From positions 1 through 22,819 of the IMG/VR virus record IMGVR_UViG_3300027754_000464: a DNA stretch of 22,819 bases, one strand, 5' to 3'. Position 1 is the stretch's first letter, and the number at the start of each line of letters is the position of its first letter. Shown piece by piece: positions 1,200 to 22,332 of this stretch. Source of the stretch: a virus. Under the pieces are notes generated by a model. It saw nothing but the letters and a program-made list of their open reading frames with translations, had not been told where the DNA came from and ran no database searches. Position numbers and translations under genes: made by a program.

Positions 1200-1259
1200 G
1201 ATTTGCTAAGTTACTCACCAGTAGGTATTGTTCTATTCCTAGCGCAAAGGGGGCGTTTC

Positions 1260-2576
1260 ATGGCGTATGTAGTCAAGCGTGGAAGCCGTTTCACAGGCTA
1301 TTACAAGAGCCTAGACACAGGCAAAGCCAAATCGGTAGGCACATTCCCAAGCAGGGCTAAAGCCTTGCAAGCAAGCCTGTTGGCAGAGGAAGGTTCGCTT
1401 GATGTTCTGCCCGAATACCAAGACACAATAGCCACCTATGTTGAACAACTTATGAAGCGAACTGATGTCCGACTAGCAACAAGAAGGCACTATTCAATCC
1501 TTCTAAAGAAGTATGCCCTACCTGTTATCGGCAGCAAAAAAATTAAGTCAATCAAGAAGCAAGACATACGCAAGATGTTGGACAATCTGCAATCCGAAGG
1601 GATAAGTCCAAGCACAATCTCTCACCTCAAAACTGCACTAGGTTATCTATTTAGGCAAGCAGTTGATAATGAGGTAATCCCAATCAACCCAACCCACCGC
1701 ATAAAGACCCCCGTAAGCAGACCAGACCCGACCTACACGCTAGAGGCTAAAGACTTCTCAAAGGTGCTAAAGAACTTACCCACAGAAGGCTCACGCCTAT
1801 TTGCTAGGTTTCTCGTAGGCTCAGGACTTAGGTTTGGAGAAGCCACAGAACTGCGTGTAAAAGACTTCAATTTCCAATCAAAAGAAGTTTATGTAAGACG
1901 AAGCGTAAGTGATGTTGGAAAAAAATTAAACAATGGAGAAAGATTTATAGTCATACCCGCCACAAAAAACGGGCATAAGCGCACAGTAACCCTAAGCGCA
2001 AACCTCATAGCCGAAATCAAAGCCTTTGTCATAGCAAAAGCACTAGCAAAAGACGAGTTAGTCTTTTCAAAGAACCTCGTCATAGATGAGGGTAGAATGA
2101 ATGTCCCTAGCGAAAGCAAAGGGAAGCCTTACATGAAGGGAAACAAGACCTTTCAGCACTCAACAGCGTATTCATACAATGTTGGTGGGTGTAGGTGTAG
2201 CCAATGTAAGCAAGCGGTAAAGGAATACCGCAGTCAATACAGAAAGGACAAAGCGAAAGGCAAAGGTAAAAGCCTTAGCGAAAGCGATAGCAGAAGCAAT
2301 AGCAGAAGCCAAAGCAATAGCAAAAGACATTTACCTCGTGACAGGTGGAGAACTACCTGGAACGAAGCCATAACCCAGTCAGGTATTGGTTGGTATCCCA
2401 AAACGCACGACCTTAGACATGCTAACGCCACTCTTCTTTTGAAGGGGGGAGTTGATGTTCATGAGGTTAAAGAGCGTTTAGGTCATCAGTCAATCACAAC
2501 GACGGAAAGGTATTTACACCGAATCCGTCACCAGCAGTCAAAGGCAGCCGAGGTTGTCAGCGACTTTTTGGAGTGA
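1260..2576 (+). CDS. int: Tyrosine site-specific recombinase (phage integrase) with an inserted Cys/Ser-rich segment
   Basis: 438 aa from ATG 1260, chosen because AAAGGGGG lies 8 nt upstream; an in-frame start at 1203 is possible but follows the terminator directly. Residues ~1-45 look like the arm-type (AP2-like) DNA-binding domain, ~55-145 the SAM-like core-binding domain, and ~160-438 the catalytic domain. All catalytic residues are present: R191 (SGLRFGE), K236 (ATKNGHK), H383 and R386 (THDLRH), H409 (LGH) and nucleophile Y418 (ERYLH). Between the beta-sheet Lys and the HxxR box lies about 80 extra residues (~278-359) containing H300, a GCRC-x2-C cluster (C311, C313, C316) and a Ser/Arg/Lys-rich tract. 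Integrases of this class insert phage DNA into the host chromosome, often at tRNA genes. The lytic transglycosylase gene starts 3 nt after the stop. Confidence 0.95.
   Translation: MAYVVKRGSRFTGYYKSLDTGKAKSVGTFPSRAKALQASLLAEEGSLDVLPEYQDTIATYVEQLMKRTDVRLATRRHYSILLKKYALPVIGSKKIKSIKKQDIRKMLDNLQSEGISPSTISHLKTALGYLFRQAVDNEVIPINPTHRIKTPVSRPDPTYTLEAKDFSKVLKNLPTEGSRLFARFLVGSGLRFGEATELRVKDFNFQSKEVYVRRSVSDVGKKLNNGERFIVIPATKNGHKRTVTLSANLIAEIKAFVIAKALAKDELVFSKNLVIDEGRMNVPSESKGKPYMKGNKTFQHSTAYSYNVGGCRCSQCKQAVKEYRSQYRKDKAKGKGKSLSESDSRSNSRSQSNSKRHLPRDRWRTTWNEAITQSGIGWYPKTHDLRHANATLLLKGGVDVHEVKERLGHQSITTTERYLHRIRHQQSKAAEVVSDFLE
2250..2331 (+). repeat. Degenerate AGC/AAAGC-type purine-rich repeat tract inside int
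   Basis: The sequence is a run of near-hexameric units such as GCGATAGCAGAAGCAATAGC, read here as alternating Ser and Lys/Arg/Asn/Gln codons. The same DNA pattern recurs at about 2590-2670, 3231-3255 and 3672-3705 in other reading frames. The 14-mer GTAAAAGCCTTAGC is exact at 2266-2279 and 3231-3244. Confidence 0.6.
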
Positions 2577-3461: not shown

Positions 3462-3788
3462 ATGGCTAATGCAAGTTCAGATGAAATTTCCTACGCAACA
3501 CGAGTAGGTGCTTCGAACACACTTCCCAATGGTGATGTTTCCTACGTAAGTCGTCACCCCTCCTCTAAAGACCATGTCATTAGAGTTACTGTTCGTAACA
3601 ACAAAGTTAAAGAAGCAACAGTTCATCGTGAGCCTCTTGATGTAGTAATACTGCGCCAAAAGAAAGTAGAAGGAGAAGCAAAAGCAAAAGCAGATAGAAG
3701 CAAATCCAATCGTGCTGCTCAGTTAGCAAAGAAGCGTTTGCGTACTCCTCCTCCTAATAACAACAAGAAAAAGCCCCCCAATAATTGA
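3462..3788 (+). CDS. Hypothetical protein with basic disordered tail, 108 aa
   Basis: The ATG at 3462 comes after a terminator and lacks a visible Shine-Dalgarno, so it may be leaderless. Residues ~5-65 alternate polar and beta-branched residues (for example HVIRVTVRNNKVKEATV), suggesting a small beta-rich domain. Residues ~68-108 are Lys/Ala/Pro/Asn-rich and probably disordered. The motif D-V-S-Y-V-S-R-H resembles short phage proteins of unknown role, but I recognise no family. The stop codon lies in the loop of the bidirectional terminator that ends the rightward region. Confidence 0.65.
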   Translation: MANASSDEISYATRVGASNTLPNGDVSYVSRHPSSKDHVIRVTVRNNKVKEATVHREPLDVVILRQKKVEGEAKAKADRSKSNRAAQLAKKRLRTPPPNNNKKKPPNN

Positions 3789-3799
3789 GGGGCTTTTTT
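3768..3799. terminator. Bidirectional terminator between convergent transcription units
   Basis: AAAAAGCCCC (3768-3777) pairs perfectly with GGGGCTTTTT (3789-3798). It has a T-run on the + strand and, because of the A-run, also a U-run when read on the - strand. It ends both the rightward 108-aa gene and the leftward reductase gene. Confidence 0.92.
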
Positions 3800-6008: not shown

Positions 6009-6667
6009 TTACTCTTCTATAGATTCAGAAATAATTCTTGTAACAGTATCTTCTCTAAGTGCTTCTGGAAGTTCTTTAAGGGCTTGGGCTCTGTCTCCAA
6101 AGATGGCAGATAGAACTCCACCTGAAGATTGACGACTAGCAGTAATCTGAATGAACTCTTTGTTTTGGTCCATCTCATTAACGTTGCCTACCAATTTAAG
6201 AAGGCGGTCAATCTCTTGGGATAGATTAGGGTCTGCGTATCCACCGTTCATTTCTTCAGCAAAACGCATGAAAGCAACTCTTTGACCCTGCATTTCAATG
6301 ATTGTGGTTAGCAAGGCTTTCAATTGTTCTTTAGTCTTTACCTCTACTGGTAGGTTGAAAGCACAGGTGTTTGAAGGTTTAAAGGCTGGGCAATTAGCCG
6401 CAACAAAACACGTGTCGCACTGGCGCAAAGATGAGGATTGATTGCTAATGACTGGAACGTCTTTTAGAACGTCACGTCCATCGTCATCTGTCTCTACAAC
6501 AGTCTTCATCTTGTACCCAAAAACAGGTAGGTTTTGTATCTCTTCTGGGGCTCTTTGGACTAATTCTGTTGGTTCTTTTTTCCGCATGTCAAGGTCACTG
6601 TTATCAGAAAGGTACCCCCCTAATTCCCCTAAACCTGATAGTAGAGGGGTATCACTGTTATCAGATA
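5993..6667 (-). repeat. Three copies of TCTGATAACAGT (minus-strand sense)
   Basis: On the + strand ACTGTTATCAGA occurs exactly at 5993-6004, 6597-6608 and 6654-6665; the first and third extend to ACTGTTATCAGATA. Two copies are inside the 501-aa gene, where they encode SDNS; one lies just past its stop within a palindrome. Confidence 0.6.
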
Positions 6668-7514
6668 CTATGTCTTTTTTACCACCATCAATGATGTGTA
6701 AATCAGGAGTTTTCTTGTCCATGAACGCTTCCAATCTTAGGTATGACCAAACTGCTACTTTAGTTGCTTCTAAGGTACTATCTTGGTTAAACGCTAAATA
6801 GTCTAACCCTGCCTTCTCTACTACAGACTTGTAACGGGGTCTTGCTTGGGCTTTCATCTTCTTGGGATAACGGTTTAACTTAGTGCCATCCCAGACAATA
6901 GTCTCGCCTCGTCTCATAGGAGAAAGCCAAGACAATGTGCTGGCGGTGGCAAATGGTACCTGTCTTAGGTTGTCAGGCTTGGCGCAGGCTAGGGCATGGT
7001 ACTGGGTGCCAAACTGCCTTTGATAGCCTCTGGTGACCGCTGAGAGGCTAGTAACAGCCTCAATTTCGTCGTTGGGAATGACTACGTTTTGGTGTTTTTC
7101 AGACATGGCTTTGAGGGCTGGTAGCCCGTATTCTTCATGCCAAACTACCCATAGTTTAGGGTCGTTCTCAAAGAAAGGGCGTTGTGCTTCTACCCACGCT
7201 TGTCCCAGAACCAATGAGTCAAACTCGGTAAAGGCAAATGCTCTTTCAGAGTTATCCACAAGGAACTCTTGATACTCAATGGCTAAAGAAGTTAACTCTT
7301 CTTTAGAGAGTCCAGCCTTGTCTGCCTGGGCCGCTCCTGACTCAATGACCACCAGGGTACTTGCATCAAAGTGTTCTGAGATTAACCATCTTTTGGTTTT
7401 AGGCAAACCTCTTTTGCGCAGTCCCCAAAAGTTGAGTCCCATCAACTCAACTTTCATACCTTCTAAAAGGGTGCGATTACTTCCTACCTCAGCACCAGAG
7501 AATATTACTCTCAT
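6009..7514 (-). CDS. Conserved phage-type protein: predicted barrel domain plus four-Cys cluster domain
   Basis: 501 aa, function not recognised. Residues 1-260 contain about eight short hydrophobic strands alternating with helices, each ending in acidic or polar residues: MRVIFSG, LVVIESG, FAFTEFDS, LWVVWHEEYG, NVVIPNDE, YHALACA, STLSWLSP and ETIVWDG. This is the pattern of a TIM barrel with a negatively charged active-site rim. A linker (about 265-360) carries two SDNSD repeats. Residues 361-390 hold C366, C369, C375 and C384 (QCDTCFVAANCPAF...NTC), suitable for zinc or an iron-sulfur cluster, followed by a helical C-terminal domain with EMQGQRVAFMRFAEE. The start overlaps the upstream stop by 4 nt (ATGA). 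The C-terminal half resembles conserved actinophage proteins without known function. A base- or nucleotide-modifying enzyme is one possibility, unproven. Confidence 0.75.
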   Translation of the reverse strand: MRVIFSGAEVGSNRTLLEGMKVELMGLNFWGLRKRGLPKTKRWLISEHFDASTLVVIESGAAQADKAGLSKEELTSLAIEYQEFLVDNSERAFAFTEFDSLVLGQAWVEAQRPFFENDPKLWVVWHEEYGLPALKAMSEKHQNVVIPNDEIEAVTSLSAVTRGYQRQFGTQYHALACAKPDNLRQVPFATASTLSWLSPMRRGETIVWDGTKLNRYPKKMKAQARPRYKSVVEKAGLDYLAFNQDSTLEATKVAVWSYLRLEAFMDKKTPDLHIIDGGKKDIVSDNSDTPLLSGLGELGGYLSDNSDLDMRKKEPTELVQRAPEEIQNLPVFGYKMKTVVETDDDGRDVLKDVPVISNQSSSLRQCDTCFVAANCPAFKPSNTCAFNLPVEVKTKEQLKALLTTIIEMQGQRVAFMRFAEEMNGGYADPNLSQEIDRLLKLVGNVNEMDQNKEFIQITASRQSSGGVLSAIFGDRAQALKELPEALREDTVTRIISESIEE

Positions 7515-15433: not shown

Positions 15434-15727
15434 TTAACTTGCTGTAATGGCGAATACAATGGCGGATATTTCTCCGTCACGAGATTCGATAGTTGTAAAC
15501 CCAGGGATGCAAGAAAGGTCCATACCTCTTGGGGCTACGTAACCACGGGCAATTGCGATTGCTTTTACTGCTTGGTTAACGGCTCCAGCACCTACGGCAC
15601 GTAGTTTTACCTCGTGTTTGTCGTAAATTGCGTGGGCAATGGCAGATGCAACGCTCTGTGGGTTAGAAGATGCGCTAACCCGTAGGAATGGCTCATCTGT
15701 AGGTACTACGTCGGGTGTGTTAGTCAA
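15434..15727 (-). CDS. spoVS: SpoVS-domain (Alba-like) nucleic-acid-binding protein
   Basis: 97 aa. After a 14-residue tail, residues 15-94 match the Stage V sporulation protein S family almost end to end: LRVSASSNPQSVASAIAHAI, then VGAGAVNQAVKAIAIARGYV and DLSCIPGFTTI, ending in a VFAI strand. SpoVS proteins are small, with an Alba-like fold thought to bind RNA or DNA; in Bacillus they affect sporulation, and they also occur in non-sporulating bacteria. The start is TTG 15727, supported by AAAGGA seven bases upstream; there is no ATG before the domain. That AAAGGA lies in the 3' arm of a 10-bp hairpin, suggesting translational control. The gene sits between the replication/recombination genes and the small-gene block, as a regulator might. 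Confidence 0.92.
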   Translation of the reverse strand: MTNTPDVVPTDEPFLRVSASSNPQSVASAIAHAIYDKHEVKLRAVGAGAVNQAVKAIAIARGYVAPRGMDLSCIPGFTTIESRDGEISAIVFAITAS

Positions 15728-15734
15728 TTGTTAG

Positions 15735-15775
15735 TCCTTTAGTTCGATGTGGTGTGCCACTCCTAAACTAAAGGA
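15735..15775 (-). promoter_or_regulatory. Hairpin sequestering the spoVS ribosome binding site
   Basis: In - strand sense, TCCTTTAGTT (15775-15766) pairs perfectly with AACTAAAGGA (15744-15735). The second arm contains the AAAGGA Shine-Dalgarno of the TTG start at 15727. Inside is a second mini-hairpin, GTGG-CACA-CCAC. The first arm starts only 5 nt after the stop codon of the RuvC-like gene, so a ribosome ending there would cover it. No T-run follows, so it is not a standard terminator. Confidence 0.7.
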
Positions 15776-15780
15776 TAGGG

Positions 15781-16365
15781 CTAAATACGTGGTTGGTCTC
15801 TGTATTTGCCATCTGACATTTGTTCAACAACAGCCTTTTCTATCTCATTTATATGGGTTTTGGAGACCAATCGTGCCAGTGCGTATGCATCCGCTGCATT
15901 GTCATCACTAAATTCCATGCCCCAACGTTTGTATATTTGCAATAACATTTCTTGTTTCTTAGCATTTCCTTTACCTGCTGCGTATTTCTTTAATGTCATT
16001 GGCGGAACTTTTAACGGATATTTTCTTTCATCATCAAAGAAATCGTAAATTGCCAATCTAACACAGGCTGATAACTCTCCAAGAACTAACGCTGCTTGTG
16101 ACTGCAAGACAGTTCCTTCCATTGCAATATCTAAAATGTCTAGTTCTAGTTCTTCTTCAATGTAATTCATACTGTCAATTAACCATGTACGAATATCTAC
16201 TAATCTTTCAATTCCAAAATAAGTAGATTTGTATACCCACGTTAAATGTTTAGTTGGGTCTTCTACAGACATTACGGTTAACGCAAACCCTGTAAGGGAT
16301 TGGTCAATACCTAAAGTTACGTCACCTTTTTTAGGTAAACCACTATCAAATAATTTAGTTGGCAT
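15781..16365 (-). CDS. RuvC-like Holliday junction resolvase
   Basis: 194 aa from ATG 16365, chosen because GGAG lies about 10 nt upstream; a TTG at 16395 would extend it 41 nt into the kinase gene. The RNase H-like fold is indicated by GIDQSLTGFAL (D21), the E83 strand (DIAMEGTV) and DDNAADAYALARL (D155, D159), matching the four-acid arrangement of RuvC (D7, E66, D138, D141 in E. coli). PPMTLKKYAAGKGNAKK resembles the segment with the basic loop that contacts DNA. It would cut four-way junctions made during recombination or late replication. It is 11 nt overlapped with the kinase gene and followed by the spoVS hairpin. Confidence 0.9.
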   Translation of the reverse strand: MPTKLFDSGLPKKGDVTLGIDQSLTGFALTVMSVEDPTKHLTWVYKSTYFGIERLVDIRTWLIDSMNYIEEELELDILDIAMEGTVLQSQAALVLGELSACVRLAIYDFFDDERKYPLKVPPMTLKKYAAGKGNAKKQEMLLQIYKRWGMEFSDDNAADAYALARLVSKTHINEIEKAVVEQMSDGKYRDQPRI

Positions 16366-16888
16366 TAAGGGTAAACTCCATACGTGTACGAACAAGTGTT
16401 CGTAAATCTTCTAAAGTACCCTCGTTCTTTAAAATTTTATCTACAGGATATCCATCCATATCATGTTCTGATACATGACTATTTACTGCTTCTACACCAT
16501 TACGTTTAATTCGCCACAGTTCTCCGCCACGGGCGCCAATGCATTCGGCTTCGTTTATAAACCGAACATCGGAAATTACAACTTTGTCAGAAGGATGTAA
16601 ATCTTTTAAAACTTGATATATCCAAATATCATCACCAAGTAACTTACGAGCCCCAACACCAATTGATTGAAGTAAATGGCGTACTTCAGGTTGAGATTTT
16701 GCAACTTCCCAACCATAGGTATCTATGAGGTGCTGTAAACAATTGCCACCAATTTGTGGATTAGTCTCATAAAGAAACTCTCTAATTTTGTCTGCAAACG
16801 CTGCTCTTGTGTAACCGTATTCCTCAACTAAAATCTTTGCTACTTCGTCTTTACCTGAACGTGCATATCCTGATAGTCCAATAATCAT
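16355..16888 (-). CDS. Deoxynucleoside monophosphate kinase
   Basis: 177 aa. The N-terminal P-loop is GYARSGKDE (G7-K13, with D14 after the Lys), and VVISDVRFINEAECI (about 103-117) is the strand and Arg-containing segment typical of phage dNMP kinases (T4 gp1 and AAA/adenylate kinase-like relatives). It would phosphorylate dNMPs to dNDPs, feeding the nucleotide pool with the ribonucleotide reductase. The ATG overlaps the TGA of the coiled-coil gene (ATGA). The family assignment is firm at the fold level; base specificity cannot be read from the sequence. Confidence 0.88.
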   Translation of the reverse strand: MIIGLSGYARSGKDEVAKILVEEYGYTRAAFADKIREFLYETNPQIGGNCLQHLIDTYGWEVAKSQPEVRHLLQSIGVGARKLLGDDIWIYQVLKDLHPSDKVVISDVRFINEAECIGARGGELWRIKRNGVEAVNSHVSEHDMDGYPVDKILKNEGTLEDLRTLVRTRMEFTLNAN

Positions 16889-18176: not shown

Positions 18177-18512
18177 TTAGTCCTTACTAAAGATGTATTC
18201 TTGAAGTGTTAGTTTAGTTTTCTTTTTGGTCTTGTTCCACTTACGAATTAAAGCGTTCCTCTCACGGTGACTGAGGCCGCCCCAAATACCGTGGGGTTCT
18301 TCACGGACAACCGCATCCCACAAACACTCTTTACGGACTGGGCAATGGTTCTTTTTATTTTCTCCAAAGCAATAAACTTTGGCTTTAGCAGCAATGATTC
18401 GGTACTGTTCCTTATCCCTAGGAGGATAGAAGATATCTTCATCATCCTTAGACTTAGGTGCAGCGCCTTTACATTGGGCGTGCGACCACCATGGGTCTTC
18501 GTCGTTGTACAT
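18177..18512 (-). CDS. whiB: WhiB-family iron-sulfur transcription factor
   Basis: 111 aa. Four Cys are in WhiB order: C14, C48, C57 and C63, followed by the G-I/V-W-G-G turn (HGIWGGLSHRER) and a basic tail (KWNKTKKKTK) suited to DNA contact. The Cys spacing is unusual: C48 and C57 are eight residues apart (FGENKKNH), where WhiB proteins normally have CxxC. C57-x5-C63 is standard. WhiB proteins hold a [4Fe-4S] cluster and bind the principal sigma factor. Phage WhiB proteins can repress or redirect host genes. The ATG follows AAAGGA at about 10 nt. It lies inside the recombination operon. Confidence 0.93.
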   Translation of the reverse strand: MYNDEDPWWSHAQCKGAAPKSKDDEDIFYPPRDKEQYRIIAAKAKVYCFGENKKNHCPVRKECLWDAVVREEPHGIWGGLSHRERNALIRKWNKTKKKTKLTLQEYIFSKD

Positions 18513-18515
18513 GTA

Positions 18516-18833
18516 TTAGGCATCCTTTAGTTTCTCCCTCATTTCTAGGAAATCATGCTCGGAAAGAATCACGTAATTCTCTCCATCCAGGTGAATACCA
18601 AGTACTGGCATTCTCCCGTCAAGGATTGCCTCTCTCATAATCTTTTTGAGGACATCGGATTTTACAGTGCACTGTTTTTTACCAGTCCACTTGTGCTCAA
18701 TCAAGAGGTCGCTTGACCGCACATCTCCTTTTCGTGACCAGAATGCTCCAGATGCTGCAGTACGTGACCCGCTTACCTTCTTGGCTAAACGGTCCTCATG
18801 CTTTCTGGATTGCTTCTGTCCTTCTGTCTTCAA
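18516..18833 (-). CDS. Hjc-like PD-(D/E)XK endonuclease (Holliday junction resolvase type)
   Basis: 105 aa from a TTG start, needed to include the helix with E13 (RKHEDRLAKK). The core is GDVRSSDLLIEHKW, with D37 or D42 and E46-x-K48, after a G-S-R...SGA segment, as in archaeal Hjc resolvases and related phage nucleases. The C-terminal half has strands (PVLGIHLDGENYVIL) and a helix (EHDFLEMREKL). It would cut branched DNA, which makes it the second junction-nuclease candidate here with the RuvC-like protein. It lies between recA and whiB, 9 nt after recA's stop. General nuclease function is the safer reading. Confidence 0.83.
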   Translation of the reverse strand: MKTEGQKQSRKHEDRLAKKVSGSRTAASGAFWSRKGDVRSSDLLIEHKWTGKKQCTVKSDVLKKIMREAILDGRMPVLGIHLDGENYVILSEHDFLEMREKLKDA

Positions 18834-22292: not shown

Positions 22293-22332
22293 GATAAAGG
22301 GGCCTGGAAACGGAATTACAGGCCCCTTTATC
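22293..22332 (-). terminator. Strong hairpin between the SSB-like gene and polA
   Basis: A perfect 14-bp stem, GATAAAGGGGCCTG (22293-22306) with CAGGCCCCTTTATC (22319-22332), has a 12-nt loop. It lies 10 nt after the stop of the SSB-like gene. The tail TTTATCATTAAT on the - strand is T-rich but broken, so it may terminate partially and let reduced transcription into polA, or block 3' decay of the upstream message. Confidence 0.8.

Follow-up and report, generated by a model that had tools for sequence, protein, structure and literature searches.

A conserved leader hairpin pairs the Shine-Dalgarno sequence of phage spoVS genes downstream of Holliday-junction resolvase genes

Leaders related to the one described here stand upstream of spoVS in well over 100 distinct viral sequences. 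In these leaders, the Shine-Dalgarno (SD) sequence of spoVS is paired in a hairpin with a covarying stem and a conserved apical loop, directly behind a gene for a Holliday-junction resolvase. The interpretation we lean towards, with moderate confidence, is that of a conserved cis-acting spoVS leader which locks the SD, is opened by the ribosome finishing the resolvase gene, and contacts a partner through its loop. Judged from the sequences, SpoVS protein is probably made mainly during translation of the upstream resolvase gene.

The leader was studied in a window of 22,819 nucleotides, comprising positions 1 to 22,819 of IMG/VR virus record IMGVR_UViG_3300027754_000464. The features of the locus are as follows.

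15781-16395, minus strand: RuvC-like Holliday-junction resolvase gene (phrog_159, E 4.9e-26; start codon uncertain)
15783-15781, minus strand: TAG stop codon of the RuvC-like gene
15731-15780, minus strand: extent of the entire leader element in its match to covariance model R1 (score 72.7 bits; the training set included the window)
15766-15775, minus strand: 5' arm of the stem, RNA UCCUUUAGUU, which pairs with the SD and covaries with the 3' arm in relatives
15745-15765, minus strand: apical loop of 21 nt, RNA UAGGAGUGGCACACCACAUCG
15764-15752, minus strand: conserved core AGGAGUGGCACAC within the apical loop (general core AGGnnGGC)
15735-15744, minus strand: 3' arm of the stem, RNA AACUAAAGGA, which includes the SD
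15740-15735, minus strand: SD of spoVS, AAAGGA
15434-15727, minus strand: spoVS with a TTG start (15727), encoding a 97-aa SpoVS protein of the Alba superfamily (PF04232, E 1e-30; solved homologue structures 2EH1/2EK0, E 8.7e-20)

The perfect 10-bp stem at 15735-15775 around the SD of a TTG-started spoVS, reported in the first-pass annotation, was confirmed on the minus strand, as was the start of its 5' arm 5 nt past the RuvC-like stop. AAAGGA, which lies 7 nt before the TTG, had been taken as the sole plausible SD; it is the only one at normal spacing, but the loop holds a second SD-like stretch, AGGAG (15764-15760), approximately 30 nt 5' of the start. The TTG is the sole in-frame ATG, GTG, or TTG upstream of the SpoVS domain, with an in-frame TAA two codons 5' of it. 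At 53 nt, the ruvC-spoVS gap is the longest between adjacent minus-strand genes from 22,272 to about 8,000 in the list of open reading frames, where the remaining junctions mostly overlap or are a few bases long. A second Holliday-junction resolvase is encoded in the same gene cluster as the RuvC-like gene, at 18516-18833 (minus strand, phrog_2002, E 8e-23). A WhiB-like regulator is encoded at 18177-18512 (minus strand, phrog_472, E 4e-16).

Folding of the 61-nt leader gave a minimum free energy of -19.1 kcal/mol, and none of 200 dinucleotide shuffles folded as well (z -4.5); the z weakens to -2.7 when about 20 nt of extra flank is included on each side. In the same calculation, SD-core pairing averages 0.68 in the other genes of the window and exceeds 0.9 in several. 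SD pairing alone is not special, and the leader is distinguished by its conservation and covariation in relatives. That the 5' arm mimics the anti-SD, as proposed, follows from its being complementary to an SD and adds nothing further.

Scanning viral contigs at the protein level yielded the 80 nearest spoVS loci, and all 80 have kept the leader. The set was widened by scans with the loop motif, with RuvC, and with SpoVS from Streptomyces phage BRock, which is more distant. Among the 116 unique leaders from the first scans, 113 belong to type A (n = 70; ruvC upstream, loop AGGAGYGGCACAC) or type B (n = 43; a non-ruvC gene upstream, loop AGGUGGGCGACU), and the six type-B leaders with a distant upstream stop are referred to as type C. 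From a later scan, for which locus L243 was the seed, came 19 new unique leaders, roughly a dozen further sequences, and a divergent group, type A', with ruvC upstream and the loop GAGGAUGGC and its variants. Several loci came from the same contigs, and counts of unique sequences were thus used where it mattered. Most loci are metagenomic fragments without a known host. The leader-bearing phages are apparently from freshwater, and the WhiB-like gene suggests an actinobacterial host for the virus of the window.

The leader appears to be restricted to spoVS. Searching viral contigs with the type-B loop pattern returned 43 independent places, all of them upstream of spoVS, which in three cases lacked an automatic call and was identified by reading the sequence. 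Loci were retrieved via spoVS, and the evidence that other genes lack the leader comes from motif scans of viral contigs, in which the motif was not found before any non-spoVS gene. Loosely spaced pattern hits without spoVS were scattered over unrelated contexts with different spacings and were discarded. A covariance model trained on 48 type-A leaders found exactly one strong site per phage locus and matched 16 of the 34 loci of the type-A' scan (E 8e-12 to 1e-3), none of which was in the training alignment; it had no match in 80 bacterial spoVS loci. Rfam 15 gave no family match in the window at the gathering threshold, nor in six loci at E values up to 1, and the leader RNA is a candidate for a new family absent from Rfam.

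The apical loop, which the first-pass annotation had missed, is the most constrained part of the leader. In 58 type-A leaders, most columns of the loop and the SD have a homozygosity of about 0.9-1.0, in comparison with a mean of 0.51 at 34 four-fold sites of spoVS, of which just 3% are above 0.9. By inspection, the universal part of the loop consists of AGG, two or three free bases, and GG, usually followed by C. Several other roles for conserved leader sequence were tried and rejected. The loop has no conserved start codon that would indicate a leader peptide; the likeness to a tRNA or T-arm is confined to UCGAAC, and the T-stem fails to form (by eye); and pairing of an upstream GCC..CC with the GG..GGC of the loop occurs in type A only, being absent from A' and B (by eye). 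A common GGCACACC ahead of the dNMK gene (16888) lies within the coding region of the gene before it and was taken as coincidence.

Related phages had been named as the place to look for the hairpin and for compensatory changes in it, and there the stem is kept with extensive compensatory change, seen in type A and A' leaders. The SD-pairing stem thus stands, but the exact 10-bp stem of the window is lineage-specific and not the constant part. Its register drifts among close type-A relatives, where the 5' arm pairs in other registers: UAGUCC/GGACUA in one sister clade (89.9% of cells paired) and GUUCU with AGGAC in another. RNAalifold accordingly returned no common pair and no single consensus stem for 48 close type-A leaders, since clades differ in register and the right arm shows almost no variation, and pair counts for a fixed stem in the close type-A alignment were just modestly above shuffles. 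The single fixed stem was abandoned and superseded by the wider scan and an arm-swap test.

Across the wider set, pairing is kept by arms as different as CCUUGAAUACGA/UCGUAUUUAAGG in L508, CCUUAGUAGUUG/CGACUAUUAAGG in L454, CCUUGUUGUC/GACAACAAAGG in L481, CCUUUGUUUC/GAAACAAAGG in L017, and CCUUUAAGUC/GACUUAAAGG in L115. Variable stem positions range over UA, AU, GC, and CG pairs, and the SD stays AAGG paired to CCUU or UCUU. In 28 of 34 divergent representatives, the SD is on the 3' strand of the stem with its GG paired in the minimum-energy fold. Stem pair counts come from single-sequence folds, and the alignment-free swap test, in which 5' arms were exchanged between leaders, therefore serves as their control. 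Among 26 representatives separated by more than 10 differing positions, folding with own 5' arms gave -11.3 kcal/mol versus -8.0 kcal/mol for swapped arms (z -7.2, 0 of 20000 permutations). The sense strand shows a larger effect than the antisense strand, although antisense folding also gains from own arms. Within type B alone, where the 3' arm hardly varies, the swap test was weak or null, and some leaders, such as L442 and L259, have weak SD pairing. Upstream of spoVS in L251, L253, L261, and L265, another 5' arm, CUUAAGGUAU, which contains the upstream stop codon, pairs with the SD.

A Holliday-junction resolvase gene lies directly upstream of spoVS in 191 of 202 unique 250-nt upstream sequences, and it encodes RuvC in 134 and a phrog_244 protein in 57. 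In types A and A' the gene before the leader is ruvC; in types B and C it encodes a small protein that matches phrog_244, annotated as a "RusA-like Holliday junction resolvase", at E 1e-13 to 1e-25. Profile searches with the phrog_244 and RuvC groups had no shared hits. The 11 exceptions comprise nine Streptomyces, gut, and other phages without the leader, together with L258 and L330, the latter of which has an upstream gene that is a resolvase by profile match. The constant unit is hence Holliday-junction resolvase, leader, and spoVS, of which RuvC is not a constant part. Since two resolvase families occur upstream of the same leader, the leader travels with spoVS and tolerates replacement of one resolvase family by the other.

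Placement of the hairpin for opening by translation of the RuvC-like gene, as first proposed, is borne out in its geometry, since nearly all relatives have the stop a short distance ahead of the 5' arm; the tie to RuvC itself does not hold, given that other phages have phrog_244 resolvases. In 139 leaders, the resolvase stop is 24-51 nt 5' of the SD, and in L454, by reading of the sequence, it is inside the 5' arm. Distances of 62-73 nt occur only in the six type-C leaders, which form one lineage and have a median SD pairing of about 0.40 versus 0.86 in the rest. The lock is lost in five of these six, the exception being L271 with a pairing of 0.94. Loss of the lock where the stop is distant fits opening by a ribosome ending the resolvase gene, and it suggests that the lock persists only at places where the hairpin could be opened by a terminating ribosome, which with one lineage and one exception is suggestive only. 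Short stop-to-start distances are normal in phages, and stop geometry by itself is thus weak evidence for coupling.

In the mechanism that we favor, the 3' strand of the leader contains the spoVS SD and the 5' strand, just past the resolvase stop or overlapping it in some phages, would pair with it, so that free ribosomes would load poorly on spoVS while the hairpin is closed. A ribosome ending the resolvase gene would cover or melt the 5' strand and free the SD, and SpoVS output would keep in step with the resolvase by translational coupling of the RNA-unfolding type. The AGGnnGGC loop would probably contact a trans-acting partner, which would set how strong the lock is. SpoVS is a reasonable candidate for this partner, given that it belongs to the Alba superfamily and that repression at their own ribosome-binding sites (RBS) is frequent among phage nucleic-acid-binding proteins; the 30S subunit is an alternative because the loops hold SD-like stretches.

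Simple coupling does not demand such strong loop conservation, which counts against it. A possible alternative, which we hold tentatively, is an autogenous translational operator, where SpoVS would bind the loop and stem of its own leader and stabilize the closed form when abundant. This is compatible with a coupling lock, and it would suit a leader that is present in a single copy per locus, accompanies spoVS and not one kind of upstream gene, and is most constrained in its loop. SpoVS belongs to a superfamily of DNA- and RNA-binding proteins, and there are known cases of phage repressors that bind to the RBS of their own genes (PMC3014915). However, no RNA ligand of any SpoVS protein was found in the literature searched, the leader is missing from Streptomyces phages with SpoVS as well as from the 80 bacterial loci, and the conserved loop could serve another ligand. 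That the loop instead acts as a ribosome standby site or tandem SD, its SD-like sequence (AGGAG, GAGG, or AGGUG) holding the 30S subunit until the stem breathes, seems improbable to us. The stem would then be a delay and not a regulated lock. Nearly every loop variant has 3-6 nt complementary to the 16S 3' tail (by eye), located about 25-30 nt before the start, but the conserved GGC and UCG flanks and the tie to spoVS and resolvase genes would be left unexplained.

We find it very unlikely that the element acts at the DNA level, as an inverted repeat or cruciform to which the resolvase, SpoVS, or a transcription factor would bind. A Holliday-junction resolvase is encoded next door, the inverted repeat of the window is spaced by about three helical turns, and own arms help antisense folding too. 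Unlike an operator, however, the arms vary freely with complementarity kept and shift in register, the stronger signal is on the sense strand, and the constant half is exactly the SD; the leader also has no match to a promoter consensus. There is equally little to recommend an intergenic hairpin of an ordinary kind, a terminator, or an RNA-processing site that does not control spoVS, even with SD pairing common among the other genes of the window. The stem is not followed by a U-run and was not called as an intrinsic terminator, and covariation, loop conservation, and linkage to spoVS all speak against this explanation.

The coupled lock that we prefer is of a known kind, while the leader RNA itself is undescribed. 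Hairpins over a downstream RBS that are resolved by RNA-unfolding coupling are established for other gene pairs, including phage f1 gene VII-IX, MS2 coat-lysis, and E. coli rpmI-rplT (reviewed in PMC12548453). The spoVS hairpin resembles these in covering the downstream RBS, in being placed such that an upstream translating or terminating ribosome could open it, and in its short distance from the stop. It differs in covarying across many phages, in following two unrelated upstream families, in having a conserved loop, and in being known from sequence alone. The T4 gp32 and gp43 and RNA-phage coat operators likewise place a structured RBS before the own gene of a nucleic-acid-binding phage protein, but the spoVS hairpin is within an operon right behind a resolvase gene, and SpoVS is a candidate binder.

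SpoVS, an Alba-superfamily protein (PMC11621453), is recurrent in viral metagenomes, where it has been labelled a sporulation auxiliary gene (PMC8940887, PMC6172770). A resolvase of either family before spoVS, together with a conserved RNA lock, points to a role of SpoVS in phage DNA junction processing, and the roughly 50-nt leader offers a concrete handle on what SpoVS binds. A more speculative proposal, to which we give low credence, is that of an undescribed phage RNA family in which SpoVS recognizes the AGGnnGGC loop in the leader of its own gene, and through this leader SpoVS output is tied to whichever of the two unrelated resolvases the phage has. If true, SpoVS-family proteins would have their first specific RNA ligand, and SpoVS would be a partner in, or a regulator of, the processing of recombination junctions and not a "sporulation" gene.

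Streptomyces phages such as BRock and LuckySocke have the same gene order, a RuvC-like resolvase followed by spoVS, but in place of the leader their gap of about 110 nt contains a promoter-like TACAAT/TATAAT and a hairpin that resembles a terminator. The same junction is thus arranged differently in these phages. In the Streptomyces phage ruvC-spoVS gaps at L228:2385-2530, L229:2363-2500, and L230:2368-2510, a strong terminator-like hairpin is followed by an inverted repeat (UUCGGAU...AUCCGAA in L228 and L229) around the TACAAT promoter-like box.

Elsewhere in the window, strong hairpins of 15-17 bp at or near intergenic gaps (1157-1194, 3768-3798, and 22293-22332) are probable terminators. 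A queuine tRNA-ribosyltransferase-like protein encoded at 6009-7514 (minus strand, phrog_887, E 3e-52) is possibly a DNA-modification (deazaguanine) enzyme. A tyrosine-type integrase match at 1203-2576 (plus strand) has an inserted segment at about residues 295-385, with a Cys-rich motif, a Ser/Arg-rich stretch, and a weak match to HNH-endonuclease profiles.
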